The position numbers were made by a program, and so were the translations under genes. From positions 496,001 to 560,000 of the forward strand of contig NZ_FWFR01000002.1 in NCBI RefSeq assembly GCF_900172325.1: a stretch of 64,000 nucleotides of DNA, given 5' to 3'. Source of the stretch: Oceanibacterium hippocampi. GTDB taxonomy: Bacteria > Pseudomonadota > Alphaproteobacteria > Sneathiellales > Sneathiellaceae. The notes under the pieces are model-generated. The model was not told the DNA's origin. It was given only the letters and a program-made list of their open reading frames with translations, and ran no database searches. Positions 21,982 to 61,842 of this stretch are shown here, one piece after another (the first letter of the stretch is position 1; the number at the start of each line of letters is the position of its first letter).

Positions 21982-22857
21982 CTACGCCTGCGGGGCGACG
22001 TCGACCGAGACCGAGATGGCATGCGAGCCGCCGCCGACCATGAAGCCGTTGATCGGGCTGACATCGCCGTAATCCCGGCCCCAGGCCAGCACGATATGCT
22101 CGTCGCCGGGAATGCAGTTGTTGGTCGGGTCGAAATCGACCCAGCCGTTGACCGGACACCAGACGGAAATCCAGGCGTGGGATTCGTCGGCCCCGACCAG
22201 CTTTTCCTGGCCGGCCGCCGGATGGGTGAGCAGGTAGCCGCTGACATAGCGGGCGGCAAGGCCGAGACTGCGCAGGCAGGCGACCTGAAGATGGGCGAAA
22301 TCCTGGCAGACGCCGGTTCGCGACGACAGCACCTGCGCCACCGGCGTCGAGACATCGGTGACCCCGCCGCGATATTCAAAGCCGTTGTAGATCCGGTTCG
22401 TCATCTCCATCGCTGCGGCGAGAAGCGGCCGTCCGGGCGTGAAGCTCGCCACGGCGAAATCATGCACCGCATCGTCGATCCCGACATAGGGCGAGGCAAA
22501 GGCGAAGCGGCAGGCCTCGAGCGCCTCGGCATCGGTCGGGCCGAGCAGCAGCCCGGCCACTTCTTCCCACGGCCGGCTCGCCTCCAGGTCGATCGGCCCG
22601 GGACCGGTGACGTCGACACGGGCACGGGAATGGACGAGCAGCTTCGCGTGCGGTTCCTGCACCGTCAGGTGGGTGATCGGGTTGCCGTAGAAGTCCCGCC
22701 CGTCCTTGCGCACGGTCGGCGCCGGATCGACGACGATGGCAGCGGAGAGGCATTTCTGGCGTGGCGCGGTGCGCGGCGACAGATGCAGCACATGGTGCGA
22801 TATCGAGACCGCCTGGGCATACTCGAAGCGCGTCCGGTGATTGACGTCGTAGATCAT
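21982..22857 (-). CDS. Transglutaminase-like cysteine peptidase-fold protein
   Basis: The 291-residue protein has an N-terminal bacterial transglutaminase-like beta domain (YDVNHRTRFEYAQAVSISHH) and a transglutaminase-fold catalytic domain with the triad in GVCQDFAHL, SHAWISVW and WVDFDPTN. It has no signal peptide, so it is probably cytosolic. The ATG overlaps the stop of the upstream ATP-grasp/alpha-E gene, which shows tight coupling. Such proteins are predicted to cleave or form peptide or isopeptide bonds. The substrate is unknown. Confidence 0.85.
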   Translation of the reverse strand: MIYDVNHRTRFEYAQAVSISHHVLHLSPRTAPRQKCLSAAIVVDPAPTVRKDGRDFYGNPITHLTVQEPHAKLLVHSRARVDVTGPGPIDLEASRPWEEVAGLLLGPTDAEALEACRFAFASPYVGIDDAVHDFAVASFTPGRPLLAAAMEMTNRIYNGFEYRGGVTDVSTPVAQVLSSRTGVCQDFAHLQVACLRSLGLAARYVSGYLLTHPAAGQEKLVGADESHAWISVWCPVNGWVDFDPTNNCIPGDEHIVLAWGRDYGDVSPINGFMVGGGSHAISVSVDVAPQA

Positions 22858-25439: not shown

Positions 25440-25527
25440 CTTTCAGGGTCCTGTACGCGGCACGGCGGCTAATATCACATGCCTTCCGGCAATCGTACAG
25501 GCGGACGGATGGACAAATCGTTGCCGC

Positions 25528-28500: not shown

Positions 28501-28848
28501 GGGGTCGAGATCGCTCTGCAGCAGCGGCTCGTAGGCGAACGGGTAACGTTCGGCCTCCGGCTCGAGAAAGAAGTCGAACGGATTGTGGATCACCATGTCC
28601 GCGACGAGGTCGACCTCGACATGGAATTCCATGATCTTCTCGGGATAGACCACGCGCGCCAGGAAATTGCCAAACGGATCCTGCTGCCAGTTCAGGAAAT
28701 AGCCCTTCGGCTCGATCTTGAGCGCATAGCTCACGATCGGCGTCCGGCAATGTGGCGCCGGACGCAGCCGCACGACCTGGGGTCCCATGCCGGTCAGCCG
28801 GTCGTAGCGATAGCTGGTTCGATGGTTGAGCGCGACGTGAAGGGCCAT
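25528..28848 (-). CDS. Large transglutaminase-like protein with DUF2126-type C-terminal region
   Basis: The 1106-residue protein begins with a transglutaminase domain (ALNHRTSYRYDRLTGMGPQ; catalytic GRGSCRDSSWLL, FTDLHAWVEVY and WVGLDPTSG within residues 1-300). About 800 residues follow of the large domain found only in this family, with WYPGEQLPRWAFSLYWRRD, GGNHVVLGGPTPADSPFLR and RSEICIDKLYSPDGPTGRLG. A C-terminal part has HLEFRFPVYGEIRHD. It has no signal peptide. The ATG at 28848 is preferred because upstream codons are not family-like. It lies 88 bp before the ATP-grasp/alpha-E gene, so the three genes probably form one operon. Confidence 0.87.
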   Translation of the reverse strand: MALHVALNHRTSYRYDRLTGMGPQVVRLRPAPHCRTPIVSYALKIEPKGYFLNWQQDPFGNFLARVVYPEKIMEFHVEVDLVADMVIHNPFDFFLEPEAERYPFAYEPLLQSDLDPYLEVPAQGPRLKAWLQAFAEPEDQPTVDFLVAVNRKLQSDIGYVIRLEPGVQSAEETLESGRGSCRDSSWLLVQILRHFGLAARFVSGYLIQLVADVKSLDGPSGADRDFTDLHAWVEVYLPGAGWVGLDPTSGLFAGEGHIPLACTPHPATAAPISGNLEYAETEFGHEMSVRRILESPRVTKPYSEETWADIDAFGRRLDRELADGDVRLTMGGEPTFVSIDFPDAPEWNIAAVGPTKRARAVDLIKRLRKRFAPHGLLHFGQGKWYPGEQLPRWAFSLYWRRDSQPLWNEEALIADEAPKAAIGPKEAEAFARGIAARMEVDEGAVLAAYEDPWHFIEQERKLPENLDPATNKLDDPQARQRLAKVFERGLGTPTGYVLPLQRWNARDGGGRWMSEPWTTRAKHLFLIPGDSPVGFRLPIDTLPHVEPGEYPYIQPADPFEERAPLPEPDRRRQPFLRSRGGQSAAPQAPQTLVGQELPDREGKKIVRSALSVEPREGRICVFMPPVETLEDYLELVTALEDTAAELDVPIHLEGYLPPDDPRVNVIRVTPDPGVIEVNVHPAGDWSEMKAITEAIYEDAHHSRLGTEKFMLDGRHTGTGGGNHVVLGGPTPADSPFLRRPDLLASLVCYWQHHPALSYLFSGLFIGPTSQAPRVDEARHDSLYELELAFTQVPEPGAGQVPLWLVDRIFRNLLIDVSGNTHRSEICIDKLYSPDGPTGRLGLVEFRAFEMPPHARMSLAQQLLLRALVARFWKTPYRGKPVRWGTALHDRFMLPHFVRADFQDVIDDLNRAGYPMRIEWFAPHLEFRFPVYGEIRHDTIGLEIRQALEPWHVMGEEGAPGGTVRFVDASVERLQVKVTGLAGERYEVACNGCRVPLTATGVQGEYVGGIRYRAWKPSSSLHPTIEVDAPLTIDLYDRWSGRAVAGCVYHVAHPGGRNYEQFPVNAYEAESRRLARFFAFGHTTGASPAPRDLGRPEFPHTLDLRWS

Positions 28849-28994
28849 GACGCAAACCGCCTTCCGTGGCCGGTTGAGCGAATCTGTCGACCGGACAATG
28901 AGCGCCCAGCAGCGAGGCGATGTCAACTCGACCGAAGAATCACGCCACCTACGGCCCCCGCGAAGCGCAAATTTCGTGACCCGGAGGCAATAAG

Positions 28995-29060
28995 ATGGCA
29001 ATCATAGCGAGCATCGTCGACGGGCGCGGCAGACGCCCCGTTGTCGTGACAAATAAATAG
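28995..29060 (+). CDS. Candidate 21-residue small ORF upstream of dctP
   Basis: An ATG at 28995 preceded by CGGAGG opens a 22-codon frame (MAIIASIVDGRGRRPVVVTN plus K) ending with TAG at 29060, 51 bp before the TRAP binding-protein start. It could be a leader peptide or noise. No family is recognised; the ribosome-binding site is the only support. Confidence 0.2.
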   Translation: MAIIASIVDGRGRRPVVVTNK

Positions 29061-29111: not shown

Positions 29112-30116
29112 ATGCGATTCACCGCTCTGACGACGGCCGCGGCCTGTATTCTGGCCCTGAGCGCCGGGACCGCCTTTGCAGCCTGCGATGCAGGCGAAAC
29201 GGTCATCAAGTTCGCCCACGTCACCAACACCGACAAGCACCCGAAGGGTATTGCCGCGTCCCTGTTCGAGAAACGCGTGAACGAGGAGATGAACGGCAAG
29301 GTCTGCGTCGAGGTCTTCCCGAATTCCAGCCTCTACGACGACGACAAGGTTCTCGAGGCGATGCTGGCCGGCGACGTCCAGATGGCGGCCCCGTCGCTGT
29401 CCAAGTTCGAGAGCTTCACCAAGAAGTTCCGGATCTTCGACCTGCCCTTCATCTTCGACGACATCGCCGCGGTCGACCGATACCAGAACTCCGATGACGG
29501 CCAGAAGCTGAAGCGCTCGATGGAGCGGAAGGGCCTGCTCGGCCTCGCCTTCTGGCACAACGGCATGAAACAGCTTTCGGCCAAGAAGCCGCTGCTGGTG
29601 CCCGAGGACGCCAAGGGGCTCAAGTTCCGCATCCAGACGTCCGACGTGCTGCAGGCCCAGTTCGAGGCGCTCGGCGCGAACCCGCAGAAGATGGCCTTCA
29701 AGGAAGTCTACGGCGCCCTCCAGACCGGCGTCATCGACGGCCAGGAGAACACCTGGTCGAACATCTACGGCCAGAAGTTCTTCGAGGTCCAGGACGGCGC
29801 CACCGAGACCAACCATGGCATCATCGACTATCTGGTGGTGACCTCGACCGACTTCTGGAACGGCCTGCCGGATGACGTCCGCGGCCAGCTCGAGACGATC
29901 CTCGCCGAGGTGACGAGCGAGCGGAACGCCGAATCGACGGCGGTCAACGAGGAGAACAAGCAGCTCATCATCAAGGCCGGCAGCAAGGTCCGGACCCTGA
30001 CGCCCGAGCAGCGCAAGGCCTGGGTCGCGGCGATGAAGCCGGTCTGGTCCAAGTTCGCCGATGGCATCGGCCAGGACGTGATCGACGCCGCGGTCTCCTA
30101 CAACGCGACGAACTGA
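29112..30116 (+). CDS. dctP: DctP-family TRAP transporter solute-binding protein
   Basis: The 334-residue periplasmic binding protein of a TRAP transporter has a signal peptide (residues 1-23, ending AGTAFA) and DctP blocks: KFAHVTNTDKHPKGIAASLF, DVQMAAPSLSKFESF, LKFRIQTSDVLQAQFEALGA and GVIDGQENTWSNIYG. The Arg in FRIQ is the usual carboxylate-binding residue, so the ligand is probably a C4-dicarboxylate or another organic acid. A 12-bp hairpin separates it from the permease genes. Confidence 0.94.
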   Translation: MRFTALTTAAACILALSAGTAFAACDAGETVIKFAHVTNTDKHPKGIAASLFEKRVNEEMNGKVCVEVFPNSSLYDDDKVLEAMLAGDVQMAAPSLSKFESFTKKFRIFDLPFIFDDIAAVDRYQNSDDGQKLKRSMERKGLLGLAFWHNGMKQLSAKKPLLVPEDAKGLKFRIQTSDVLQAQFEALGANPQKMAFKEVYGALQTGVIDGQENTWSNIYGQKFFEVQDGATETNHGIIDYLVVTSTDFWNGLPDDVRGQLETILAEVTSERNAESTAVNEENKQLIIKAGSKVRTLTPEQRKAWVAAMKPVWSKFADGIGQDVIDAAVSYNATN

Positions 30117-30126
30117 CGCCCCGTTG

Positions 30127-30156
30127 GACGCGGGCCGGGATTGACCGGCCCGCGTC
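30127..30156 (+). terminator. Intra-operon hairpin after dctP
   Basis: GACGCGGGCCGG / CCGGCCCGCGTC is a perfect 12-bp stem with loop GATTGA, starting 11 bp after the dctP stop. It ends in TCTTCG without a real T-tract. It probably protects the dctP message or lowers read-through into dctQM. Confidence 0.65.
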
Positions 30157-30234
30157 TTCGACGCCAGCTCGGGCGTGAGCGCCCGCCACCGCTCCCGCCC
30201 TCATCCCGACCAGTTCCGGGGGGAGGACCGCCAG

Positions 30235-30858
30235 ATGGACAGCACTCCGAGGACGGCGACAGGGCGATGGATCAACGGGATCGAGGAGGGCCTGATCGCG
30301 CTTCTCCTCGGGCTCATGACGATCATCACGTTCGCCAACGTGATCGCCCGCTACGTTTTCAATTCCAACATTCTCTGGGCCCTCGAGACGACCCTGTTCC
30401 TGTTCGCCTGGCTGGGCCTTATCGGCGCCTCCTACTGCGTCAAGACGACCGCCCATCTCGGCGTCGACGCGCTCCTCAACATCGTCTCGCCAAGGCTGCG
30501 CAGGCTGCTCGGTTTCGCCGCGGTGGCGAGCTGCCTCGTCTTCTCCTTCCTGCTGCTCTACGGCGCCTGGCAATACTGGCTGCCCTTCGCGACCAAGAAC
30601 ATCTGGTACGAGGTCAACGACATCCCCATGCCGGGCTTCCTGCGTTTCCTGGAGGACCTGGTGAACGAGGGCGAGACCTACGAGAAGCTGCCACGCTTCA
30701 TCCCGTATTTCGCCATGCCGCTCGGCATCACGCTGCTGACCTTCCGCTTCCTGCAGGCGGCCTGGCAGATCGCGACCGGCAAGCGGGAACGGCTGATCGC
30801 GAGCCACGAGGCCGAAGAGCTGGTCCACGACGCCGCCACCAATCGCCGGGAGGCCTGA
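30235..30858 (+). CDS. dctQ: DctQ-family TRAP transporter small permease
   Basis: This 207-residue membrane protein has four hydrophobic segments and the family region FANVIARYVFNSNILWALE, followed by CVKTTAHLGVDAL. The ATG at 30235 has GGGGAGG upstream. It forms the transport unit with DctM. A cytosolic-looking Lys/Arg/Glu-rich tail ends the protein. Confidence 0.9.
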   Translation: MDSTPRTATGRWINGIEEGLIALLLGLMTIITFANVIARYVFNSNILWALETTLFLFAWLGLIGASYCVKTTAHLGVDALLNIVSPRLRRLLGFAAVASCLVFSFLLLYGAWQYWLPFATKNIWYEVNDIPMPGFLRFLEDLVNEGETYEKLPRFIPYFAMPLGITLLTFRFLQAAWQIATGKRERLIASHEAEELVHDAATNRREA

Positions 30859-30861
30859 GCG

Positions 30862-32238
30862 ATGCAGATCGTCATCCTGTTCAGCCTCGTCATCGGTTTC
30901 CTGGTCATCGGCGTGCCGATCGCGGTCAGCCTCGGCCTGGCCTCGATCATCTTCCTGCTCGTCTTCTCCGACAGCTCGCTCGGTTCGGTCGCGCAGACCC
31001 TGTTCGACGCCTTCGCCGGTCATTACACGCTGCTCGCCATCCCCTTCTTCATCCTCGCCTCGACCTTCATGTCGACCGGCGGCGTCGCCCGGCGGATCAT
31101 CCGTTTCGCGATTGCCTGTGTCGGCCATTTCCAGGGCGGCCTGGCAATCGCCGGCGTCTTCGCCTGCATGCTGTTCGCGGCACTGTCCGGCTCGTCGCCG
31201 GCGACCGTCGTCGCGATCGGCAGCATCGTCATCGCCGGCATGCGGCAGGTCGGCTACACCCGCGACTTCGCCGCCGGCGTGATCTGCAATGCCGGCACGC
31301 TGGGCATACTGATCCCGCCTTCGATCGTGATGGTGGTCTATGCCTCGGCGGTCGACGTCTCGGTCGGGCGGATGTTCCTGGCCGGGGTGATCCCCGGACT
31401 GGTCGCCGGCCTGATGCTGATGATCGGCATCTACGTGACCGCGAAGATCCGCAACCTGCCCGCCCAGGACTGGGTCGGCTGGCGGGAGATCGTGGCGGCG
31501 GCATCGGACGCGATCTGGGGCCTGCTGCTCATCGTCATCATTCTCGGCGGGATCTACGGCGGCATCTTCACGCCGACAGAGGCGGCCGCCGTCGCCGCCG
31601 TCTACGCCTTCCTGATCGCCAATTTCGTCTATCGCGACATGGGTCCACTGAAGGGCGAAGGCGAGGTCCGCCACTCGTTCTTCCGGAACCCGACGGCCCT
31701 GCTGACGGTCTGGTTCCACCCGGACACCAAGCATGCGCTGTTCGAGGCCGGCAAGCTCACCGTCATGCTGATGTTCATCATCGCCAACGCGCTGATCCTG
31801 AAGCATGTGCTGACCGACGAGCAGATCCCCCAGGCGATCGCCGGGGCCATGCTCGACGCCGGCTTCGGGCCGATCATGTTCCTGGTGATCGTGAACATCA
31901 TCCTGCTGATCGGCGGTCAGTTCATGGAGCCGTCCGGACTGATCGTCATCGTCGCGCCGCTGGTCTTCCCGATCGCCATACAGCTTGGCATCGATCCGAT
32001 CCACCTCGGCATCATCATGGTGGTCAACATGGAGATCGGCATGATCACGCCGCCGGTCGGGCTCAACCTGTTCGTCACCGCGGGCGTCGCCGGCATGTCG
32101 ATGATGGGGGTCGTGCGCGCGGCGCTGCCGTGGCTCGGCATCCTGTTCATCTTCCTGATCATGGTGACCTACATCCCGTGGCTCTCGACGTTCCTGCCGA
32201 CCGCGCTGATGGGACCGGAGATCATCACCAGCCAATGA
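30862..32238 (+). CDS. dctM: DctM-family TRAP transporter large permease
   Basis: The 458-residue protein has about twelve transmembrane segments and DctM motifs: LFAALSGSSPATVVAIGSI, GILIPPSIVMVVYA, GGIYGGIFTPTEAAAVAAVYA and MEIGMITPPVGLNLFV. It begins three bases after the dctQ stop and ends nine bases before the stop of the convergent C45 hydrolase gene. Substrate is imported with Na+ or H+. Confidence 0.94.
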   Translation: MQIVILFSLVIGFLVIGVPIAVSLGLASIIFLLVFSDSSLGSVAQTLFDAFAGHYTLLAIPFFILASTFMSTGGVARRIIRFAIACVGHFQGGLAIAGVFACMLFAALSGSSPATVVAIGSIVIAGMRQVGYTRDFAAGVICNAGTLGILIPPSIVMVVYASAVDVSVGRMFLAGVIPGLVAGLMLMIGIYVTAKIRNLPAQDWVGWREIVAAASDAIWGLLLIVIILGGIYGGIFTPTEAAAVAAVYAFLIANFVYRDMGPLKGEGEVRHSFFRNPTALLTVWFHPDTKHALFEAGKLTVMLMFIIANALILKHVLTDEQIPQAIAGAMLDAGFGPIMFLVIVNIILLIGGQFMEPSGLIVIVAPLVFPIAIQLGIDPIHLGIIMVVNMEIGMITPPVGLNLFVTAGVAGMSMMGVVRAALPWLGILFIFLIMVTYIPWLSTFLPTALMGPEIITSQ

Positions 32239-32247: not shown

Positions 32248-33234
32248 TCAGGCCCGCTCGGCAACCAGCGGATAGCTGACCGTCCGGGTGCCGGGAACGA
32301 AGTCGGCGAGCTTGAGATCCCAGCGCTGGCCGGGCCAGCACAGCGCCATCGTCCGCCTCTTCGCCCAGTAGGCGGCGGTATAGAGGGTGCCGAAGCCGCG
32401 ATCGAAGGCGAGCGAGTAGAGCGGCGGCTTCTGGAACGCGGCGATGAAACTCGCCTGCGATTCCGGGTGGTGGGTCAACCGCTGCAGCAGGAAGCGTTCG
32501 CGCTCGACGGTCGCCGTGGCGCGCGCATGATGGACCAGTTCGACCCGTTCCTGGTGATTGGTCGCGACCGCCGCGCGGGTCACCAGGGGCGCCCGGTCCG
32601 GCGCCAGATAGACCGTCGCCCAGCGCCGCTCGGCATCGAGCACGGTGACATTGTAGGCCATGTGCGTCGGGATCCGGGTCAGCGTCTCGGCCGCCTCGGC
32701 CGCCGTCGTGCAGGTCTGCAGGACGTAGCGCAGGATGATCGGCACGCCGAAGCCGTCGCCGACCGCGCTGCGCCCGCCGAAGGTGAGCGAGATCGCCAAC
32801 CCGGCGTCGTTCACGCCGTCGACCAGGCCGACCAGGCAGTCGCTGGTGCCCATCACCGCACGCCCCATCCATTCGTCGCGCAGCACCACCCCGTCGAAGG
32901 CGAAGGGGCTGTAGTCGTAGTTGCGGACCAGCAGCGGCGTGGCGCCGGTCCAGACCGCCTGCGAACAGCCGCTGAGATAGCGCGGCGGCCGATAGAGACT
33001 GAGGAAACGCGCCGCCAGGTCGCCGCCACCGGCGAGCCCGCAAAGCCGCTCCCACACGGGGACGAATTCCGGCATGTGGGTGGCGAGCGCGCGACGGCAG
33101 GCGAGATAGGTCGGACGCGCCTCCTCGCCCTCGCTCAGATACCAGCGGCGATAGGCCGGCCAGCTGCGCTCGAAGAGCTGACGCCAGACCGCCCCCGTCG
33201 CGTCGTCGGAAAGCGCGGAAAAGGTCAGGTTCAT
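32248..33234 (-). CDS. C45-family autoproteolytic acyltransferase/hydrolase (Ntn fold)
   Basis: The 328-residue protein is related to isopenicillin-N acyltransferase and other C45 Ntn hydrolases, which act on amide bonds. Cys90 in YLSGCSQAVW is the probable nucleophile, freed by self-cleavage; a propeptide of about 90 residues is normal for the family. Other blocks are LLVRNYDYSP, GLVDGVNDAGLAISLTFGG, MAYNVTVLDAERRWATVY and AVATNHQE. It has no signal peptide, so it is probably cytosolic. It is the last gene of a four-gene minus-strand run with an ATP-grasp ligase, a PLP decarboxylase and a nitrilase-type amidase. The substrate is unknown; an acylated amine or amino acid is a reasonable guess. 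Confidence 0.82.
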   Translation of the reverse strand: MNLTFSALSDDATGAVWRQLFERSWPAYRRWYLSEGEEARPTYLACRRALATHMPEFVPVWERLCGLAGGGDLAARFLSLYRPPRYLSGCSQAVWTGATPLLVRNYDYSPFAFDGVVLRDEWMGRAVMGTSDCLVGLVDGVNDAGLAISLTFGGRSAVGDGFGVPIILRYVLQTCTTAAEAAETLTRIPTHMAYNVTVLDAERRWATVYLAPDRAPLVTRAAVATNHQERVELVHHARATATVERERFLLQRLTHHPESQASFIAAFQKPPLYSLAFDRGFGTLYTAAYWAKRRTMALCWPGQRWDLKLADFVPGTRTVSYPLVAERA

Positions 33235-33304
33235 GGCCGTCCTGCGATCAAAGCCTCATGGGCGCCGGGCCCGATCGGCATCCGGCGCCCGCCTGCCACC
33301 CGTC

Positions 33305-34768
33305 CTAGAGGATCTTGAACGCGTGGCCGTCTTCCAGTTCGCCCGGCGCGGCCGCCGTCAGCGGGCGCCCCTTGAACTGCGCGCGGATCGAGCTGATCCA
33401 CTGTTTCGACCGCTGGGTCAACCGGAAACGGTTGTCCATCGCCCGCCCCCGGGTCACCAGGATGCCGAGATCCGCGCCTTCGTAGCGGTAGTCGCCCGGC
33501 CTCAGGATGCGCAGGAAGAAGGCCTCCTGTTCGCTGTCGACGGCACGGCGGTGATAGTCGAAGCGGTCATACTCGATACCGCCGTCGTCCCTGAGCCGCC
33601 AGATCCCCGATTCCGGAGCCTCGGTGAGGATGTCGATCGAATCCTCGGTATGCTTGATGACCATCTGGCACCAGGAATCGATGTTGCCCGCGTTGGCCCA
33701 GCGCTCGTTCAGTTCGTCGATCGCGATGTCGAAGGAAACGCCCGAGAATTCCAGCAGATGGAACAGGAACAGCGGCGCGTCCGCATGGGCGAAGGCGGCA
33801 TGATTGGTCATCGAGCTGGCGCCGGTGATGCGCGGGTTGAGCTCGCCCAGGTAGATTTCCTTGGAATCCTGGTCGATCAGGAAATCCAGTTCGAAATAGC
33901 CGCGATAGCCTTCCTTGCGAAGCTGCTCGCCGAAGCGGAAGGTATATTCGCGCGCCTTCTCCCGGACCGTCTTGGCGAAGGCGTTGGCGAAGATCTCGTT
34001 GCCGCACCAGCCGCCGCGATAGGGCGTCAGTTCCTTGAAGCCGACCAGTTCGGTCATCAGCGGGCCGACGATGGTGCCGGCCTTGGTCGTGCAGGCCTCG
34101 ATCGCCGAGCCGCGGCACTTGATCCGCTTCATCACCTTGATCTCGCCCTGGCCGATGATCTCGTGGGCATGGCGGCGGAAATCGGCGGCCGACTTGATGA
34201 AGAAGGTCGTGTGTCCGGAGTCGCCGAAGGCCGACTGCAGCACCAGGTCGCTGCCGAGTTTCGCCTTCTTCGCGACCTCCTGCAGCTGCTCGTAGCTCTC
34301 GATCTCGGCGAGCGCGTTGGGCACGCTCGGCACCCCCGCCTTGTTGCCGATCCGGACCGTCTCGATCTTGTTGTCGACCCGGTTGCGGAGCTTGGCCTTC
34401 GGGAACCAGACATCGCAGCCGAGTTCCTTGGCGAGCTTCTCGGTCTCCTCGTCGAACATGAGGAAGACCAGCTTGGGCTTGCCGCCGCGACGCTTGATCG
34501 CGTCGATCACTTCCTTGTGCTGTAGCAGGTAGTTGTTGATCTCCTCGATCGACTGGAACTCCGCATGCGGCTGCTCGGTCGGACAGAGGACGTTCGGGTG
34601 GCGGCCGTCATAACAATCCAGATAGTTGATATACTTGAAATTCCGGACCCACTCGTCGATTCCGAGCAGGTTGAAATTGGTCGCACTGATGAAGAAGATC
34701 GGCTTCTCGTTGCGATGGAAATAACGCCGGATCTCGGAGATGTTTTTCAGCTTGCGCGATGCAGCCAT
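33305..34768 (-). CDS. Stand-alone ATP-grasp ligase (biotin carboxylase-like)
   Basis: The 487-residue protein has an N-terminal Rossmann-like region (residues 15-130), then an ATP-grasp domain (NKIETVRIGNKAGVPSVPNA, LVLQSAFGDSGHTTFFI, GYFELDFLID). The metal-binding strand is YLGELNPRITGASSMTNH with the Glu and Asn expected to hold Mg2+. No biotin carrier, carboxyltransferase or CPSase partner is present, so it is better seen as a carboxylate-amine ligase that forms an amide through an acyl phosphate. The ATG at 34768 follows AGGAGG. It is 70 bp upstream of the C45 gene. Substrates are unknown. Confidence 0.8.
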   Translation of the reverse strand: MAASRKLKNISEIRRYFHRNEKPIFFISATNFNLLGIDEWVRNFKYINYLDCYDGRHPNVLCPTEQPHAEFQSIEEINNYLLQHKEVIDAIKRRGGKPKLVFLMFDEETEKLAKELGCDVWFPKAKLRNRVDNKIETVRIGNKAGVPSVPNALAEIESYEQLQEVAKKAKLGSDLVLQSAFGDSGHTTFFIKSAADFRRHAHEIIGQGEIKVMKRIKCRGSAIEACTTKAGTIVGPLMTELVGFKELTPYRGGWCGNEIFANAFAKTVREKAREYTFRFGEQLRKEGYRGYFELDFLIDQDSKEIYLGELNPRITGASSMTNHAAFAHADAPLFLFHLLEFSGVSFDIAIDELNERWANAGNIDSWCQMVIKHTEDSIDILTEAPESGIWRLRDDGGIEYDRFDYHRRAVDSEQEAFFLRILRPGDYRYEGADLGILVTRGRAMDNRFRLTQRSKQWISSIRAQFKGRPLTAAAPGELEDGHAFKIL

Positions 34769-34808
34769 TGACGATGCCTCCTGACGTTCCTGTCTGACGT
34801 TTCTTTTT

Positions 34809-34869
34809 CGTCCGCGCCGGCTGACGCGAACGGGTCTTTTCCGTCCGCGCCGACCGGCACGAACGGGTC
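34809..34869. repeat. Two 28-bp direct repeats between the decarboxylase and ATP-grasp genes
   Basis: The 28-mers at 34809-34836 and 34842-34869 match at 24 of 28 positions, sharing CGTCCGCGCCG at the left and CGAACGGGTC at the right, with a 33-bp period. They fill most of the 108-bp gap between two minus-strand genes. A role in binding or in the RNA is unknown; it may be a simple duplication. Confidence 0.6.
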
Positions 34870-34876
34870 GAACCGT

Positions 34877-37651
34877 TCAGCCCGCGGCCTTGCGTTTGCC
34901 CGCGGCGGAGCGGCGGCTCAAAAGCTTCTTCAGGGCCTCCTCGGTGAAGACGCGGAGCCCGAGTTCAGGCCGGTAGCCGTGGATTTCCTTGACGTCCAGA
35001 GCCCGCATGAAGCGCAGGATCTCGGCGCTGATAACCTGGCCCGGAACGAGGATCGGGAAACCCGGCGGATAGGGGATGATGAAGGCGGTCGAAACGACCT
35101 CCCTGCCCGATTCCATGGCCGCGTCGAGGCTGCCGTCGTCGAGCGAGAGATGTTCGCAATTGCCGTCGTCGTAGGCGAGAAAGAAGGCCTCGCGAAGATC
35201 GCCCTCGGGCGTGTCCGAGCCGTCGCGGGCACGGAACGCCTCGTGGAAGCGCGAGAAATCGGGCAGCGGCGGCAGATCCTCGTTGAGCGAACGGACACGC
35301 CGCTCGAACACCTTGCGCTCGGTCGGGCTGGCATCCTCGATCTGGTCGTCGATCTCCCGGGCGACCTCGACCAGAACCTCGATCAGATAGGCCACCGACG
35401 AGCGGGTGGTGCCGATATTGGTCATGAAAAGCACGGTATTGCGCGAGGTCTTGTTGACCTGGATACCGAACCGGTCCATCAGCGTCTTGTTCTTGAAGGT
35501 GTCGCCGTCGAAGCCCGTCGCGCCGACGGCCAGCGTGATCCGCGAGGCATCGAGGGTGAACTCGTCCTGGGCCCAGGCGTCCCAGGCGTCGTTCCAGCCA
35601 TGCTCCGGGTCGAAATAGGACTTGATGCCGCTCTCCCTGTATTCAGACGGGATCAGATCGGCGACCGTGAGAACCTTGAAATACTTGCATAAAAGCGGGT
35701 TGGTCGAGATGCTCCGGCGCATCGCCATGGCGGCTTCGATCTGCTTCTGGACGAACTCGAAGCCTTCCAGTTCCACCTGCCGCCGACCGACATCGAGGGA
35801 GGCGATGATCTGGTAGTTCGGCGAGGTCGAGGTATGCGTCATGTAGGCCTCGTGAAAGGCCTCCTCCACCTCGCCCCGGAAGTTCTGGTCGTGGATGTGG
35901 ATCATCGACCCCTGCCGGAGCGAGGTCAGGGTCTTGTGGGTCGACTGGGTGGCATAGACCCGGACCCGCGTCCGGTCGGGATCCGGCAGCAGCCGGGTTG
36001 CCAGCAGGGTCTCGTCGTCGGCGTCCTTCAGGGTCTTGGCCTGGGCCGCGCAGCGGGCCCGGTAGTCCGGATCGCGGAAACGGTCACGCAACAGGTCGGC
36101 GCAGTACATCGCCGTGCGCTGCCGGTAGGTCGGGCCGAAGCGGGCGAAGGCGAACCACGCCTCGTCCCAGAGGAAGACGAGGTCCGGCTTGATCGCCAGG
36201 CACTCCTCCATGACCCGCTCGACGTTGTAGACGATGCCGTCGAAGGTGCAGTTGGTCAGCAGCAGCATCCGCACCCGGTCGAGCTTGCCGGCGCGCTTCA
36301 GTTCGAGCAGCCGGCGCTTGATCTCCTTCAGCGGCACCGCGCCGTACATCGAGTAGGGCTGGAGCGGATAGCTGTCGAGATAGACCACATGGGCGCCGGC
36401 CAGCACCATCCCGTAATGGTGCGACTTGTGGCAGTCGCGATCGACCAGGATGATGTCGCCCGGCCGCACCAGGGCCTGGACGACGATCTTGTTGCAGGTC
36501 GAGGTGCCGTTGGTCGCGAAAACCGTCTTCTTCGAACCGAAGGCCCGCGTCGCGAGCTCCTGCGCCTTCTTGATCGGGCCATGCGGCTCGAGCAGCGAGT
36601 CGAGCCCGCCCGAGGTTGCCGAGGTCTCGGCGTGGAAGATGTTGGCGCCGTAGAATTCGCCCATGTCCTGGATCCAGTGGGACCGGGTGATCGACTTCCC
36701 GCGGCTGATCGGAAGCGCGTGGAAGACGCCGGTCGGCTGCCGGGAATAGGCCTTCAGCGCGCTGAAGAACGGCGTCTCGTAACGCGCCGCGACGCCGCGC
36801 AGGATATTCAGATGCAGTTCGTTGAAGTCTTCTTGGTTGTAGAAGACCCGGCGGCAGCTGCCCAGGTCGCGGCCGGCAATATCCTCGACCGAGCGGTCGG
36901 TGACGAGGAACAGGTCCAGTTCGGGCCGCACCCGGCTGATCATGCGGCAGAGTGCCGGGCCGAGATCCTGCATCGGTATATCGTCGATCTGGATTTCGCC
37001 CACTTCCGAAAGATAGCGCTTCAACACCTTGAGTTCATTGCGCGATCGGAGGTCGAACCCATGGCGGACCACGACGGACTGGATGTTGTGGTTGAACATC
37101 ACCGCGATCAGAGCGTCCTCGAGGCTCGGCACGACCACCGCGCGATAGACGAACGGATCCTCGTGCCGGCGCATGTCGTCGAGGCTCCTGTGCAGCGCAT
37201 GTTCCTGCGCGGCGGTCAGGAGATCGACGATGAGGACCTCGAAATAGGGCTTCGCATGGGCGCGCGCCTCGAGGCTGTCAGGCTCGCTGTCGTCGTCCTG
37301 GCTTTCCTCGTGCAGCGGTATGGTGCGACGGCGATAGGCCCCGCTTTGCAAAGCCCGCGAGATGCGCCGGGTGCCGAAGGCGAAATCATCGTAACGTCCC
37401 CGGTGCAACAGGTCGCGCAACACGGTGAAGCCCTCGGCCCCGGGGAAGGCCCAGTAGATCTCGATCGGTTCCAGCGAATCGAGCAGCGCGACGGCCTTGG
37501 CGACGAGATCGCTTCGCCGGATATCCGAACGTTCCCGGCTGATCCTCTGCGCCGTTTCGCGGAGATCGCTCCAGCGATCCGTCCGCACCTGAACCGCGCT
37601 GTAATATTCGGCGATCGAATGTCCGCTTCGGACAATGGGGCTGTCGTTCAC
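34877..37651 (-). CDS. Orn/Lys/Arg decarboxylase (PLP, fold type I) with long N-terminal extension
   Basis: The 924-residue enzyme is of the class that removes the carboxyl group of Lys, Orn or Arg. The PLP lysine is Lys573 in ATQSTHKTLTSLRQGS; other landmarks are NGTSTCNKIVVQALV, DRDCHKSHHYG and FLWDEAWFAFARFGP. The C-terminal part after the Lys (351 residues) has normal length, but the part before it is some 190-200 residues longer than in bacterial decarboxylases near 715 residues. The extra N-terminal region (EPIEIYWAFPGAEGFTVLRD) precedes the usual receiver-like wing domain. I chose the GTG at 37651, which has GGAGG upstream. Which amino acid it uses cannot be read from sequence. Confidence 0.85.
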   Translation of the reverse strand: MNDSPIVRSGHSIAEYYSAVQVRTDRWSDLRETAQRISRERSDIRRSDLVAKAVALLDSLEPIEIYWAFPGAEGFTVLRDLLHRGRYDDFAFGTRRISRALQSGAYRRRTIPLHEESQDDDSEPDSLEARAHAKPYFEVLIVDLLTAAQEHALHRSLDDMRRHEDPFVYRAVVVPSLEDALIAVMFNHNIQSVVVRHGFDLRSRNELKVLKRYLSEVGEIQIDDIPMQDLGPALCRMISRVRPELDLFLVTDRSVEDIAGRDLGSCRRVFYNQEDFNELHLNILRGVAARYETPFFSALKAYSRQPTGVFHALPISRGKSITRSHWIQDMGEFYGANIFHAETSATSGGLDSLLEPHGPIKKAQELATRAFGSKKTVFATNGTSTCNKIVVQALVRPGDIILVDRDCHKSHHYGMVLAGAHVVYLDSYPLQPYSMYGAVPLKEIKRRLLELKRAGKLDRVRMLLLTNCTFDGIVYNVERVMEECLAIKPDLVFLWDEAWFAFARFGPTYRQRTAMYCADLLRDRFRDPDYRARCAAQAKTLKDADDETLLATRLLPDPDRTRVRVYATQSTHKTLTSLRQGSMIHIHDQNFRGEVEEAFHEAYMTHTSTSPNYQIIASLDVGRRQVELEGFEFVQKQIEAAMAMRRSISTNPLLCKYFKVLTVADLIPSEYRESGIKSYFDPEHGWNDAWDAWAQDEFTLDASRITLAVGATGFDGDTFKNKTLMDRFGIQVNKTSRNTVLFMTNIGTTRSSVAYLIEVLVEVAREIDDQIEDASPTERKVFERRVRSLNEDLPPLPDFSRFHEAFRARDGSDTPEGDLREAFFLAYDDGNCEHLSLDDGSLDAAMESGREVVSTAFIIPYPPGFPILVPGQVISAEILRFMRALDVKEIHGYRPELGLRVFTEEALKKLLSRRSAAGKRKAAG

Positions 37652-37682
37652 GACGTCTCGTTCCTCCGGATTGCGTGGGCCG

Positions 37683-38669
37683 TCAGGTAACTTCGACTTG
37701 AACTCCGGGTACGCGCAGGTCCGCCGGCACGGCGGCGACTTCAGAATTGGTATTGGCGACCGGCGCAGGTGGTGCGACCGGGGCAACCGGTTCCACGGCA
37801 AGGCCGTCGCGCGACCCGCGCGCCGGCATCGTCAGCGGCCCGAGCGTCCCGAGATAGCCGTCAACGCCGGAATCGCGCCGGTAGACGGGAAAATCCACCG
37901 CCCGGTCGCGGAAACTCTTCAGCACCTGGCCGAGGCCGTTGGCGCCGGTCTCCCGCTGCCGGCGAACCCGCTCGAGGTCGATCTCCAGCGGGATGATCTC
38001 CTCGCCCTCGCCGGCCTGGTAGAGTACCTGCCCGGACGGGTCGACAACCCGCGAGCGGCCGACGCCGCCGGCGCCTAGGCCGTTGATGTCGAAAACGAAG
38101 CACTGGAACTGCGCCGCCGTCGCCTGGGCCATGGCAAGCTCGACCTCGCGGTCCGTGGTTCCGGTCAGGACGATGCGGAGCAGCACCTCCGCCCCCATTG
38201 AGGTGAGCGTCCGGGTGGTTTCCGGGAACCACATGTCGTAGCAGTTCGAGAGCCCGAAGCGGCCCACACCGGGCACATCGAAGACGCAGAACTCGGTGCC
38301 GCCGGAAACGCCCGCCTCATAGGGCAGGAACGGGAACATCTTGCGATAACGGGCGACCACCGTCCCTTGCGGATCGATCACCGAGGCAGTGTTGTAGACC
38401 CGGCCGTCGGCCGTCCGCTCGAAGATCGATCCGGGGATGAGCCAGATCCCGTGCCGCGCGGCGGCCTCGGCGAAGCTCTGCTCGGCCGGCGGCGGGAAGC
38501 TCTGTGCATGATGATGCAGCGGCCCGAAGGGGGCGAGTTCGCTGAAAATGATCATCTGCACCCAGGGAAAGCGCGCCATGCAGACATTGATCTTGTGGAT
38601 CATCGCTTCGACGTTCGGACGCGCCGCGTCGACTTGCATCTGGATACCGGCAATCGCGAAGGGAACCAT
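37683..38669 (-). CDS. Nitrilase-superfamily carbon-nitrogen hydrolase
   Basis: The 328-residue protein has the Glu-Lys-Cys triad of the family: Glu44 (IIFSELAPFG), Lys110 (ARYRKMFPF) and Cys143 (SNCYDMWFPET). The CYDxWFPE form is like N-carbamoylputrescine or beta-ureido amidases, so an amide or carbamoyl amine is a likely substrate. A Pro/Ala/Val-rich tail of about 45 residues follows the catalytic domain. The ATG at 38669 follows GGGAG. It is the first gene of the minus-strand cluster and stops 31 bp before the decarboxylase start. Whether it hydrolyses the product of the neighbouring ligase is inference. Confidence 0.85.
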   Translation of the reverse strand: MVPFAIAGIQMQVDAARPNVEAMIHKINVCMARFPWVQMIIFSELAPFGPLHHHAQSFPPPAEQSFAEAAARHGIWLIPGSIFERTADGRVYNTASVIDPQGTVVARYRKMFPFLPYEAGVSGGTEFCVFDVPGVGRFGLSNCYDMWFPETTRTLTSMGAEVLLRIVLTGTTDREVELAMAQATAAQFQCFVFDINGLGAGGVGRSRVVDPSGQVLYQAGEGEEIIPLEIDLERVRRQRETGANGLGQVLKSFRDRAVDFPVYRRDSGVDGYLGTLGPLTMPARGSRDGLAVEPVAPVAPPAPVANTNSEVAAVPADLRVPGVQVEVT

Positions 38670-38806: not shown

Positions 38807-41590
38807 TCAGCCTTGACCCGCGCCGGCCCCGACCGGTCGCGTCGCGCCGGCGGCGACACGCCGACGCTGAATGAAGACGATCAGGAGCAGCACAAGGACC
38901 GCCGGGATGAACATCAGGTACTTGGAGGGCTGCGAGATCGGCTGCAGGACCTTCAGGACTTCCTGGTCCCAGTCGAGCCCGGCCGCCTGGGCATCGGAAT
39001 CGAAGGCGACATCGTCGATGAAGATCTTCCCGTCCTCCTCGCGAAGGGTTATCCCGTCGTTCTTGAGCCGCTCGGTTCCGTCGGTCCCCGGACCGAGATG
39101 AAGCTGGGCGACGAACTCGATCGGATCGCCGATATCGTTGAGCCCGGCGACCCGGATCCGGAACGGCTCGCCCTCCGGCGCCGCGGCCGCCGCCTCGACG
39201 ATCTCGCCCGGCGCCCGTTCCGCGAACGGCGGATAGATCATGTCCATCCAGAAGCCCGGCCGGAACAGGGTGAAGGCGATGAGCAGCAGCGCCGCCGATT
39301 CCCAGTAGCGGTTGCGGGCCAGGAACCAGCCCTGGGTCGCCGCCGCGAAGAGCAGCATCGCGATCGTGGCGACGATGAAGATCCCGAAGCCGCCGATCCA
39401 GCCGACATTGATCAGCAGGAGGTCGGTGTTGAAGATGAACAGGAACGGCAGCGCCGCCGTGCGCAGGCTGTAGAAGAACGCGATCCCGCCGGTCTTGATC
39501 GGATCACCGCCCGAGACCGCCGCCGCCGCGAACGAGGCGAGTCCGACCGGTGGCGTCACGTCGGCCATGATGCCGAAGTAGAAAACGAAGAGATGGACCG
39601 CGATCAGGGGAACGATCAGGCCGTTCTGCTGGCCGAGCGTGACGATGACCGGGGCCAGCAGGGCCGATACCACGATATAGTTGGCCGTCGTCGGCAGCCC
39701 CATCCCGAGGATCAGCGAGAGGATGGCGGTCAGGAACAGGATCGCCATCAGGTTCCCGCCGGAGATCACCTCGACCACCTCGGCCAGCGCCGAACCGACG
39801 CCGGTCTGGCTGACCGCGCCGACGATGATGCCGGCGGTCGCCGTGGCGATGCCGATGCCGATCATGTTGCGCGCGCCGGCGATCAGGCCCTCGATCAGTT
39901 CGACGCTGCCGCGCTTGATCTGGCCACCCAGATCGCCCTCCTTCCGGAAGAACGCGAAGAGCGGGCGCTGGGTCAGCAGGATGAAGATCATGAAGGCCGA
40001 GGCCCAGAAGGCCGACAGGCCGGGCGACAGCCGGTCGATCATCAGCGCCCACACGAGGACGACGACCGGCAGCAGGAAATGCAGCCCGGACTTCACCGTC
40101 GGGCCGGGCAGCGGCAGCTTCTGGACGGGCGCGTTCGGATCCTCGAGATGAAGTTCCGGGTAGCGCGAACTGAAAGCGACGAGCCCGACATAGACCGCGA
40201 CGAGGAGCGCGAAGACGATCCAGCTCGCCGCCTCGCCGAAGGCGGGCCGCATCCAGCCCATGCCGTAATAGACCGCGAAGGAAACGGCGCAGAGGACCAG
40301 CACGCCGAACAGGAAGCCGACGACCCGTACGACCCAGGGCTTCGGCTCGACCGGCCGCGGCAGGCCTTCCATGCCCGCCTTCATCGCCTCCAGATGGACG
40401 ATATAGACGAGCGCGATATAGGAAATCAGGGCCGGGACAAAGGCGTGCTTGACGACCTCGAAATAGGAAATGCCGACATACTCGACCATCAGGAAGGCGG
40501 CAGCGCCCATCACCGGCGGCATGATCTGGCCGTTCACCGAGGAGGCCACCTCGACCGCGCCCGCCTTCTCGGCGGAGAAGCCGACCCGTTTCATCAGCGG
40601 AATGGTGAAGGTGCCGGTGGTCACCACGTTGGCGATCGAGGAGCCGGAAATCAGCCCGGTCATCGCCGATGAGACGACGGCGGCCTTGGCCGGCCCGCCG
40701 CGCATGTGGCCCATCAGCGAGAAGGCGACCTGGATGAAGTAGTTGCCGGCCCCCGCCTTGTCGAGCAAGGCACCGAACAGCACGAACAGGAAGACGAAGC
40801 TGGTCGAGACGCCGAGCGCGATGCCGAACACGCCCTCGGTCGTCACCCAGTGATGGTTGATGACCTCGTTCAGCGAGTTGCCCTTGTGGGCGATGATCGA
40901 CGGCATGTAGGGGCCGAGGAAGGTGTAGACCAGGAACACCGAGGCGACGATCATCAGCGCCGGGCCGAGCGAACGCCGCGTTGCCTCGAGCAGCAGGATT
41001 ATGCCGATCATGCCGACGACCAGATCCTGGAAGATCGGCGCGCCGGGACGACCCGAAAGATCCCGGTAGAAGATGAACAGGTAAAGCGCACAGAAGGCGC
41101 CGACCAGTGCGAGACCCCATTCCCAGGCGGGAATCCGGTTCTTCGGCGAGCCGAGGACGATCGACACCGCGACGGCGCCGACGATCAGTGCCGGGATCCA
41201 GACCGGCATCGTCCCTTCCCCGCCGATCCAGAACAGGATGCCGAGCAGGACCGGCACGCCGATGCCGAGGATCAGCTGGAACACCGAGCGCGCCGCCGGG
41301 TAGGCGAGGAAGGCGAGCGTCACCGCGAAGGCGAGATGGATCGACCGTGCCTGGGTGTCGTTGAAGACGCCGAAGTCGAAGATGAAGGGCAGCGGCGAGG
41401 CGAACCAGAGCTGGAACAGCGACCAGGCGAGTGCCAGGCCCAGTATCGCCTTCGCGGCGAAACCGTCCGGCGAGCGCCCGCCGGTATCGGAGGATGCGAC
41501 CAGTTCGTCGATCTCTGCCTGGCTCAGACCGCCGTGTCCGGCGCCTTCCTGTTCGACCCGAGATGCCTGCTGTTGGTCTTTTCTTGTCAT
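38807..41590 (-). CDS. TAXI-type TRAP transporter fused permease (DctQM fusion)
   Basis: The 927-residue membrane protein joins a DctQ-like N-terminal part (residues about 50-250) to a DctM-like part. DctM motifs include SSAMTGLISGSSIANVVTTG, GQIMPPVMGAAAFLMVEYVG and LGMGLPTTANYIVVSALLA. Several C-terminal membrane helices and a soluble segment (EGEPFRIRVAGLNDIGDPI) follow, as in many fused TAXI permeases. It works with the binding protein encoded just upstream. The stop lies 137 bp from the start of the nitrilase-type gene, so the transporter is read before that cluster in the same direction. Confidence 0.92.
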   Translation of the reverse strand: MTRKDQQQASRVEQEGAGHGGLSQAEIDELVASSDTGGRSPDGFAAKAILGLALAWSLFQLWFASPLPFIFDFGVFNDTQARSIHLAFAVTLAFLAYPAARSVFQLILGIGVPVLLGILFWIGGEGTMPVWIPALIVGAVAVSIVLGSPKNRIPAWEWGLALVGAFCALYLFIFYRDLSGRPGAPIFQDLVVGMIGIILLLEATRRSLGPALMIVASVFLVYTFLGPYMPSIIAHKGNSLNEVINHHWVTTEGVFGIALGVSTSFVFLFVLFGALLDKAGAGNYFIQVAFSLMGHMRGGPAKAAVVSSAMTGLISGSSIANVVTTGTFTIPLMKRVGFSAEKAGAVEVASSVNGQIMPPVMGAAAFLMVEYVGISYFEVVKHAFVPALISYIALVYIVHLEAMKAGMEGLPRPVEPKPWVVRVVGFLFGVLVLCAVSFAVYYGMGWMRPAFGEAASWIVFALLVAVYVGLVAFSSRYPELHLEDPNAPVQKLPLPGPTVKSGLHFLLPVVVLVWALMIDRLSPGLSAFWASAFMIFILLTQRPLFAFFRKEGDLGGQIKRGSVELIEGLIAGARNMIGIGIATATAGIIVGAVSQTGVGSALAEVVEVISGGNLMAILFLTAILSLILGMGLPTTANYIVVSALLAPVIVTLGQQNGLIVPLIAVHLFVFYFGIMADVTPPVGLASFAAAAVSGGDPIKTGGIAFFYSLRTAALPFLFIFNTDLLLINVGWIGGFGIFIVATIAMLLFAAATQGWFLARNRYWESAALLLIAFTLFRPGFWMDMIYPPFAERAPGEIVEAAAAAPEGEPFRIRVAGLNDIGDPIEFVAQLHLGPGTDGTERLKNDGITLREEDGKIFIDDVAFDSDAQAAGLDWDQEVLKVLQPISQPSKYLMFIPAVLVLLLIVFIQRRRVAAGATRPVGAGAGQG

Positions 41591-41753: not shown

Positions 41754-42716
41754 TTACATCCAGCCCTTTTCCTTGTAGTAACGGGCCGCACCAGGGTGCA
41801 GCGGCGCCGACAGGTTGTTGGTGATCATCTTCGCCGGATCGAGATTGGCGAAAGCCGGATGCAGGCCCTTGAAGCGATCGAAATTGTCGAACACGGCCTT
41901 GACGATCTGGTAGATCGTCTCGTCGTCGGTCTTGGTCGAGGACACGAAGGTCGCGCCGACGCCGAAGGTCTGGACGTCCGCGTCGGTGCCCTTGTACATG
42001 CCGCCCGGAATGGTCGCGGAGGCGTAATAGGCATTGTCGCCGATCAGCTTGTCGACGGCGGCGCCGGTCACCGGGATCACCTTGGCGTCGCAGGACGTGG
42101 TCGCTTCCTGGATCGAGCCGTTCGGATGGCCGACGGTGAAGATGATCGCGTCGACCTTGTTGTCGCACAGCGCCTGGGACTGCTCGGCCGACTTCAGCTC
42201 GGAAGCGAGCGCGAAATCATCCATCGTCCAGCCCATGGCCCCCATCAGCACTTCCATGGTGCCGCGCTGCCCGGAGCCGGGATTGCCGACATTGACGCGC
42301 TTGCCCTTCAGATCGTCGAACGTGTTGATGCCGGCGTCGGCGCGGGCGACGACCGTGAACGGCTCCGGATGAACCGAAAAGACCGCGCGCAGGTCCGGAT
42401 TGGCGCCCTGCTCCTCGAATTTCGAGGTGCCGTGGTAGGCGTGATACTGCCAGTCGGACTGGGCCACGCCCATGTCCATGTCACCGGCGCGAATGGCGTT
42501 GAGATTGGCCACCGAGCCGCCGGTCGACGGGGCCGTGCACTTGATGTTGTGCTTGGACTGTCCGCGATTCACCAGCTTGCAGATGGACTGACCCACGACG
42601 TAGTAGACCCCCGTCTGCCCACCCGTGCCGACGGTGACGAATTTCTCCTCCGCCATCGCACCGGTCGCCCCGGCGAAGAATACCGCGGCGAGCGCCGCAC
42701 CAGTAATGAATCGCAT
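41754..42716 (-). CDS. TAXI-family TRAP transporter solute-binding protein
   Basis: The 320-residue periplasmic protein has a signal peptide (residues 1-22, ending TGAMA). The TAXI family start FVTVGTGGQTGVYYVVGQSIC and the blocks NLNAIRAGDMDMGVAQSDWQ and GKRVNVGNPGSGQRGTMEVLMGAMG identify it. TAXI proteins bind glutamate or other small organic ligands; the ligand here is not evident. The neighbouring decarboxylase cluster makes an amino acid or amino-acid derivative possible, which is inference. Confidence 0.93.
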   Translation of the reverse strand: MRFITGAALAAVFFAGATGAMAEEKFVTVGTGGQTGVYYVVGQSICKLVNRGQSKHNIKCTAPSTGGSVANLNAIRAGDMDMGVAQSDWQYHAYHGTSKFEEQGANPDLRAVFSVHPEPFTVVARADAGINTFDDLKGKRVNVGNPGSGQRGTMEVLMGAMGWTMDDFALASELKSAEQSQALCDNKVDAIIFTVGHPNGSIQEATTSCDAKVIPVTGAAVDKLIGDNAYYASATIPGGMYKGTDADVQTFGVGATFVSSTKTDDETIYQIVKAVFDNFDRFKGLHPAFANLDPAKMITNNLSAPLHPGAARYYKEKGWM

Positions 42717-56558: not shown

Positions 56559-56569
56559 GGCGCGACGAG

Positions 56570-56610
56570 AAGCGCGGGTGCCGGCGTCCCCTCTCCGGCA
56601 CCCCGCTTTT
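56570..56610 (+). terminator. Rho-independent terminator/attenuator after urtA
   Basis: AAGCG-C-GGGTGCCGG pairs with CCGGCACCC-CGCTT (one bulged C) around a 10-base loop and runs into TTTT. This is the best-formed of the four hairpins that follow binding-protein genes and should lower urtBCDE expression relative to urtA. Confidence 0.8.
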
Positions 56611-56668
56611 CCTTCCGGCGGCACGGTTCGCCGCTACCACGTCAACACCGGACGGGAGCGCTGACTTC

Positions 56669-58318: not shown

Positions 58319-58319
58319 G

Positions 58320-60273: not shown

Positions 60274-60275
60274 CC

Positions 60276-61827: not shown

Positions 61828-61842
61828 GGGAGGAACTAAACG

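Follow-up and report, generated by a model that had tools for sequence, protein, structure and literature searches.

An ATP-grasp ligase and C45 hydrolase gene pair, with an orphan decarboxylase and a nitrilase-type amidase, as a possible mobile module for catabolism of arginine-like compounds

In the Puu pathway of Escherichia coli (PuuA, PuuB, PuuC, PuuD, PuuE and PuuR), γ-glutamylputrescine synthetase (PuuA) makes an amide, the hydrolase PuuD breaks it, and 4-aminobutyrate (GABA) and the transaminases GabT/PuuE stand at the end of the route. Arginine is taken to GABA by a different set of enzymes, in which a racemase, D-arginine dehydrogenase and 2-ketoarginine decarboxylase (AruI) act together with a guanidinobutyrase, and this route is not known to require an ATP-grasp or C45 enzyme. 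A ligase and a hydrolase working on one and the same amide are also known from the Ebony/Tan pair, insect Tan being a member of the C45 family. Here we describe a cluster of four genes found in a 64,000-nucleotide stretch (hereafter the window) of the alphaproteobacterium Oceanibacterium hippocampi (contig NZ_FWFR01000002.1, positions 496,001 to 560,000), in which a stand-alone ATP-grasp ligase and a C45 N-terminal nucleophile (Ntn) hydrolase are encoded beside a decarboxylase and an amidase. We tentatively propose that these four genes, together with the importer found beside them here, constitute a mobile module of catabolism by which L-arginine, or a closely related guanidino or diamino acid, may be taken towards GABA by way of an amide.

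All four open reading frames (ORFs) are intact, lie on the minus strand and together span positions 32248–38669. They encode a nitrilase-superfamily amidase (NIT, 37683–38669, 328 aa, PF00795), an OKR-type fold-I decarboxylase dependent on pyridoxal 5'-phosphate (PLP) (DEC, 34877–37651, 924 aa, PF01276), the ATP-grasp ligase (ATPg, 33305–34768, 487 aa, NF005096) and an isopenicillin-N-acyltransferase-like Ntn amidohydrolase/acyltransferase (C45, 32248–33234, 328 aa, PF03417). The first-pass annotation of this DNA had reported four such families in one direction with gaps of 31 bp (NIT/DEC), 108 bp (DEC/ATPg) and 70 bp (ATPg/C45), and all of this proves exact.

Conservation of the cluster was examined by scanning a one-genome-per-species collection, which yielded 321 ATPg relatives; the top 80 entered the analysis, so that the set is biased toward close homologs. 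Plasmid records (11 of 32) and whole-genome matches (27 stretches) bring the total to 118 loci (numbered with the prefix L), which reduce to 114 distinct ones at 97% nucleotide identity. The gene caller was crude and missed some genes; gene patterns were recounted by tblastn, and counts of neighbors rest on called genes. Some contigs are probably mis-binned, for example L004, which is labelled Oceanobacillus. The order NIT-DEC-ATPg-C45 is kept in 77 of the 114 distinct loci, NIT-ATPg-C45-DEC occurs in three, DEC-ATPg-C45 in 19, and the other 15 have other arrangements, contig ends cutting some of the 19 and of the 34 that lack either full-set order. The co-occurrence in other genomes that the first-pass annotation proposed as a check is borne out. 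C45 accompanies ATPg in 111 of the 114, in 108 of them as the next gene on the same strand within 400 bp. Three loci lack C45: in L175 and L178 ATPg reaches the contig end, and in L129 transposases follow. Because ATPg and C45 are near-inseparable, we regard the ligase and the Ntn-hydrolase as the core, with DEC and NIT as frequent partners. Some clusters lack NIT and some lack DEC, so that the set is not one fixed four-step path. Such absences might be expected if the four proteins were mere neighbors serving separate pathways; the order kept in 77 distinct loci, its occurrence in alpha-, beta- and gammaproteobacterial records, and an ATPg identity to the window copy of 41–80% over all loci speak against that explanation, which we consider highly improbable.

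The variants deserve brief description. NIT was not found in the 14–25 kb read at L059, L112, L113, L116, L138 and L139. In the deep-branch genomes of L138 and L139, a large protein and a gap of ~0.5–0.7 kb precede DEC-ATPg-C45; the large protein of L138, the one examined, carries urea-transporter and M23 peptidase domains. Two of the loci are on plasmids of Rhizobium leguminosarum and have nif genes close to the cluster (nifHDKEN in L112, nifA in L129). In L179 (9517–10170) a decayed cluster was recognized by eye, a short frame that opens like a TAXI protein, continues as the C-terminal part of ATPg and is followed by C45; this sequence suggests an internal deletion, and that the module may be dispensable.

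At an E value of 1e-60, ATPg is found in 11 of 398 sampled genomes of the phylum (~3%), in 10 of 369 of the class of genome G407 and in 11 of 385 of the class to which the window belongs; these samples overlap, and the window genome is counted in both the phylum and the window-class samples. Among the 25 genomes of the window's order, all of one family, only the window's own passes the NF005096 cut-off (0 of the 24 others). On a quick tree of 111 ATPg proteins, the gammaproteobacterial label needs at least seven changes on the starred branches, phylum members outside the window's class, apart from named ones, being taken as gammaproteobacteria on the basis of L165, a near-copy of L022 (Granulosicoccus) in the class sample of G407, and otherwise by inference. 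The patchy spread and the changes on the tree fit horizontal transfer, with the caveats that contigs of metagenome-assembled genomes may be mis-binned and that class labels were assigned from record titles or kinship. A role in anti-phage defense was tried and set aside, PADLOC returning no family for the four proteins at E 1e-3.

What, then, does the ligase do? ATPg matches Pfam marginally (CPSase_L_D2, 21.2 against 19.8) and NF005096, named "biotin carboxylase", in full (776 bits, cut-off 684). Its structural model (pLDDT 88) has the fold shared by biotin carboxylase, PurK and PylC, with Z of 22–24 tied among the three. In addition to the ATP-grasp fold, the E-x-N metal-binding motif is present, with E309, N311 and R313 invariant in 29 of 29 aligned rows. 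In biotin carboxylases, the catalytic glutamate sits in a Q-V-E-H motif that follows N-P-R. Where pyruvate carboxylase, the one carboxylase aligned, reads N-P-R-I-Q-V-E-H, ATPg has N-P-R-I-T-G-A-S, of which G316 and S318 are invariant and A317 is kept in at least 90% of the 29 rows. The database name is doubtful for ATPg because the carboxylase Q-V-E-H motif is missing, and we reject assignment as a biotin carboxylase even though the NF005096 cut-off is passed. On motif and model, the best reading of ATPg is a putative ATP-dependent carboxylate-amine ligase.

The case for C45 as an Ntn-hydrolase is made by both profile and predicted structure. It matches PF03417 (AAT) at 105 bits and NF040521 at 187 against a cut-off of 85. 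An AlphaFold2 model (pLDDT 92) aligns with isopenicillin N acyltransferase (2x1c) over 300 residues with Z 29.4 and rmsd 3.1, and contains the whole fold of the acyltransferase precursor; the fold is common to the two proteins, yet identity over the structural alignment is 14%. The predicted nucleophile, Cys90, which follows Gly89, is invariant in 31 of 31 aligned rows, as is the stretch R104-N105-Y106-D107, so that the predicted AAT fold comes together with a conserved cysteine nucleophile. The pairing of such a hydrolase with a ligase recalls Ebony/Tan, with the difference that Ebony, the partner ligase there, is of another fold. A second, diverged C45 gene (~42–45% identity) lies near the main cluster in L022 (13078–14307) and L057 (13305–14369). 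The first-pass annotation had suggested the making and breaking of an amide; the near-inseparable ATPg-C45 pair fits this, and C45 would then cleave the amide that ATPg may form.

DEC most likely starts at a GTG at position 37651, which is preceded by GGAGG, the mechanical ORF opening at 37801. It matches PF01276 (OKR_DC_1) at 248 bits, and both S570-T571-H572-K573, which includes the PLP lysine Lys573, and D496-E-A-W499 are kept in at least 97% of 81 sequences, as befits an OKR-type enzyme. None of the named arginine, lysine or ornithine decarboxylase models is reached above cut-off (best score with NF011928, 207 against 968; the arginine model NF011603, 170 against 1167). The D-E-A-W of DEC is the same as in the arginine decarboxylases 6q6i and 2vyc, while the lysine decarboxylase 6y3x has D-S-A-W, a difference that might hint faintly at arginine as substrate. 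The closest solved relative is the "probable amino acid decarboxylase" 9n0o/9n0n (E 3e-253), and similarity to this protein (PDB 9n0n, 9n0o, 9n0p) runs nearly the full length. According to PMC12910592, 9n0n/9n0o is Rv2531c of Mycobacterium tuberculosis, the activity of which remained unclarified despite the solved structure.

NIT, translated from 38669, matches PF00795 (CN_hydrolase) at 126 bits and has the triad Glu44-Lys110-Cys143 of the nitrilase superfamily, kept in at least 97% of 74 sequences. It falls under the cut-off of all ten NCBIfam models matched, the top-scoring named ones, formamidase and aliphatic amidase, both being far under theirs. N-carbamoylputrescine amidase (AguB) was considered and rejected, the TIGR03381 equivalog giving 63 against 410 bits.

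Evidence on the pathway comes from neighboring genes, which were first listed without a hypothesis and afterwards tested. The test used all 28 genomes with an ATPg match in the three samples above (the phylum and two classes), chosen for ATPg alone, with "near" defined as within 12 kb and read by hand. The GabT, ureohydrolase and succinate-semialdehyde dehydrogenase (SSADH) queries came from one of these genomes, so that figures are given with and without that copy, and the genomes are related to each other, so that the P values are rough. By this measure seven of the 17 close GabT copies are near ATPg, where 0.1 would be expected; minus the query copy the figure is six of 16, from five families (P ~4e-10). 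The proximity of ureohydrolases is weaker (5/74; 4/73 minus the query copy, P 1e-3), as is that of SSADH (5/44; 4/43, P 1.4e-4), two of the latter four being DoeC-like genes of a single ectoine-operon family. The control, acyl-CoA dehydrogenase, is near in two of 101 cases, or one of 100 without the window copy. Across the 114 distinct loci, GabT-like transaminases are near 19, PuuR-like regulators (at least 35% identity to E. coli PuuR) near 11, and both near seven. In L078 and L080 a single block holds GabT, a PuuR-like gene and an importer. Five of six neighboring aminotransferases tested pass the GabT equivalog TIGR00700, and the sixth is PRK07483. Against solved structures, the ureohydrolase of L022 is guanidinobutyrase-like (465 bits), that of L172 guanidinopropionase-like (442) and that of L040 agmatinase-like (341).

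In the window, the genes upstream of NIT on the same strand encode a TRAP transporter fused permease with DUF3394 (38807–41590, minus strand; TIGR02123, 652 against 321; PF11874, 216) and a TAXI-family TRAP solute-binding protein (41754–42716, minus strand; TIGR02122, 366 against 84), with gaps of 137 and 163 bp. The limits of the first-pass annotation leave out both genes. TAXI and TRAP are both present at 19 of the 114 distinct loci, and in 18 of these the TRAP gene lies ~0.6 kb or less from NIT on the same strand. It is likely that this TAXI-TRAP system is the importer for the pathway. The importer and the GABA and guanidino context, which lay outside the view of the first-pass annotation, point to catabolism. 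Its suggestion of a basic amino acid, here widened to guanidino compounds, fits part of the neighbors, namely the guanidinobutyrase-, guanidinopropionase- and agmatinase-like enzymes, the 2-ketoarginine decarboxylase described below, GabT and the PuuR-like regulators.

The arginine-oxygenase route is an old one, and a PLP version of it can be drawn from the same genes. DEC would then be an O2-using PLP enzyme converting arginine to 4-guanidinobutyramide, NIT would yield 4-guanidinobutyrate, guanidinobutyrase, GabT and SSADH would finish the path, and ATPg and C45 would act elsewhere. L022 and its near-copy L165 do gather DEC, NIT and guanidinobutyrase-like, GabT-like and SSADH-like genes, the best named models for NIT are the two amidases mentioned above, far below cut-off as they are, and the activity of Rv2531c is unsettled according to PMC12910592. 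The scheme gives ATPg and C45 no role, and there are clusters with NIT and no DEC (L114, L130, L131, L162) and with DEC and no NIT (L059, L138, L139); it seems to us very unlikely.

DEC is absent from five fully flanked clusters (L114, L128, L130, L131 and L162). Four of them, the Shinella group (L114, L128, L130) and L162, hold a 5-guanidino-2-oxopentanoate (2-ketoarginine) decarboxylase (737 in L114 and 770 in L162, against a cut-off of 500) together with a D-amino-acid dehydrogenase, a racemase, an aldehyde dehydrogenase and a ureohydrolase; the racemase of L114 resembles ornithine racemase (393 against 480). On the ATPg tree L162 is placed away from the Shinella group, and its gene order is different; two ATPg lineages are involved. 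These are the genes of the AruI route, set beside ATPg/C45 and not seen around the window cluster; GABA, the proposed outcome of the module, would be common to both. We read the gene set as a putative alternative decarboxylation of the same amino acid, arginine. The thiamine-dependent (TPP) enzyme of L131 and L183 was tried as a further 2-ketoarginine decarboxylase and rejected, since it is PRK08199 (850 against 539) and gives 242 against 500 with the ketoarginine model.

The same clusters lend themselves to a different view, in which the module lies upstream of arginine: NIT and C45 would cut an imported compound that carries arginine or another basic amino acid as an amide conjugate or in peptide-like form, ATPg would handle the released acid or exchange the acyl group, and the freed amino acid would be degraded by DEC or along the 2-ketoarginine route. 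The enzymes beside ATPg-C45 in Shinella and L162 look sufficient for degradation of free arginine, an AS-family amidase occurs in the cluster of the rhizobial plasmids L112 and L116, where NIT was not found, and dipeptide-type ABC transporters, TAXI-TRAP or an amino-acid permease adjoin some clusters. An ATP-consuming ligase is nevertheless odd in a purely hydrolytic route and no one transporter type is common to the clusters, and we hold this view to be unlikely.

A third setting is provided by ectoine degradation (DoeABXCD/EutB), which in its known form requires none of the four proteins. Two genomes that belong to the same family and might be guessed to be Halomonas-like (L133 and L135) have the four genes inside an ectoine-degradation operon, flanked by a DoeX-like and a DoeC-like gene, and a transaminase and an SSADH-type enzyme follow there. 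Among 119 loci, DoeA/DoeB at 45% identity or more were found beside the cluster only in these two. One might suppose from this, and from the many hosts that are marine to judge by their names, that the module makes or recycles a stored or osmoprotective dipeptide-like amide, the ectoine link reflecting shared osmotic control. GabT, the ureohydrolases and the importers point instead to catabolism, and the ectoine genes of the window genome form a separate operon outside the window, with doeA at C6:563073, ~28 kb beyond NIT; we judge the idea improbable. That separate operon (L143, contig C6, 562–571 kb) holds ectoine uptake and degradation genes unlinked to the four-gene cluster, with DoeA at 65%, DoeB at 59%, EutB at 52% and an EnuR-like regulator at 38% identity, the uptake genes being recognized by eye.

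In the catabolic module that we tentatively favor, DEC would remove the α-carboxyl group of the amino acid, ATPg would form an amide on a pathway intermediate at the expense of ATP, and C45, as the matching amidohydrolase, would release that amide, with NIT as a second, optional amidase. GabT, SSADH and a guanidino-acid ureohydrolase would finish the route to GABA and so to succinate, and in some clusters the racemase, D-amino-acid dehydrogenase, 2-ketoarginine decarboxylase and aldehyde dehydrogenase would substitute for DEC. The identity of the substrate, the partners joined by ATPg, the cleavage of that same amide by C45 and the order of the steps are what we infer. The amide may be a temporary handle, by analogy with the γ-glutamyl protection of PuuA/PuuD. 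A more specific form, which we think rather doubtful, is a new arginine/polyamine catabolism in which the ATP-grasp ligase and C45 replace PuuA and PuuD: an acyl handle on a guanidino or diamino intermediate would block cyclization while the OKR-type enzyme and neighboring enzymes remove carboxyl and amino groups, and C45, with NIT, would take the handle off to give GABA. Besides the proposed making and breaking of an amide on the way to GABA, what resembles the Puu pathway is that a minority of clusters have PuuR-like regulators and PuuE-like transaminases as neighbors. The differences are that the ligase here is of ATP-grasp rather than glutamine-synthetase type, that the hydrolase is a C45 Ntn enzyme, that an amino-acid decarboxylase is included and that an amine oxidase is usually absent. 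The Puu pathway as such was rejected, blastp of called genes in 119 loci finding PuuA in one (30%) and PuuD in none.

Several observations weigh against the catabolic proposal. TAXI-TRAP importers usually carry organic acids, which does not favor arginine. The ketoarginine gene set could, it seems, take arginine to GABA without ATPg, C45 or NIT, leaving the step of the module unexplained in those clusters, and that step is likewise unexplained in the ectoine operons of L133 and L135. In the stretch of L131 that was read, there is no 2-ketoarginine decarboxylase, D-amino-acid dehydrogenase or racemase. Family labels of the ureohydrolases disagree, because the Shinella enzyme, 69% identical to the guanidinobutyrase-like enzyme of L022, yet passes the agmatinase model (212 against 174). 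Ureohydrolases were seen in only eight, and GabT in only 19, of the 114 distinct loci within the stretch read. The window genome yields no GabT at E 1e-120 and, at E 1e-20, a single ureohydrolase, which matches at 42% and is encoded on a different contig. A PuuR-like protein, the one scored, stays below the PuuR cut-off (140 against 211), and the amine oxidase needed for a γ-glutamyl (Puu-like) route is not regular, PuuB-like proteins occurring in four of 119 loci at 24–29% identity.

Turning to the rest of the window, a second TRAP transporter, DctPQM (29112–32238, plus strand), converges on C45 with an end-to-end distance of 9 bp. A promoter scan found none where 1.2 would be expected by chance, terminator-like sites (11 against 6.1 expected) were left out of the reasoning, and an Rfam search of 13 loci for a riboswitch gave no family above the gathering score. 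Two long minus-strand ORFs at 22854–29001 may encode a circularly permuted ATP-grasp/alpha-E protein and a transglutaminase/DUF2126 protein. At 55266–64000 the translations suggest, on inspection by eye, a urea ABC transporter and, after it, urease, and RF02514 (5' ureB sRNA) matches 62635–62931 on the minus strand (118.6 against 40 bits), antisense to an apparent urease gene, a match that may reflect coding conservation only.

The statement of the first-pass annotation that this set belongs to no characterized pathway is not contradicted in the open-access literature, most subscription papers and preprints lying outside the scope of our search; no description of the cluster was found there, which does not by itself show its absence from print. 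An operon present in alpha-, beta- and gammaproteobacterial records, with its ligase in ~3% of sampled genomes of the phylum, appears in no open-access paper that we found. If our proposal is true, it would add a route from arginine-like compounds to GABA and would explain a family that is named "biotin carboxylase" and lacks the carboxylase motif. It would also give a handle on the orphan branch of decarboxylases to which Rv2531c belongs, and in its more specific form, with the acyl handle, would place that branch in a functional context for the first time.

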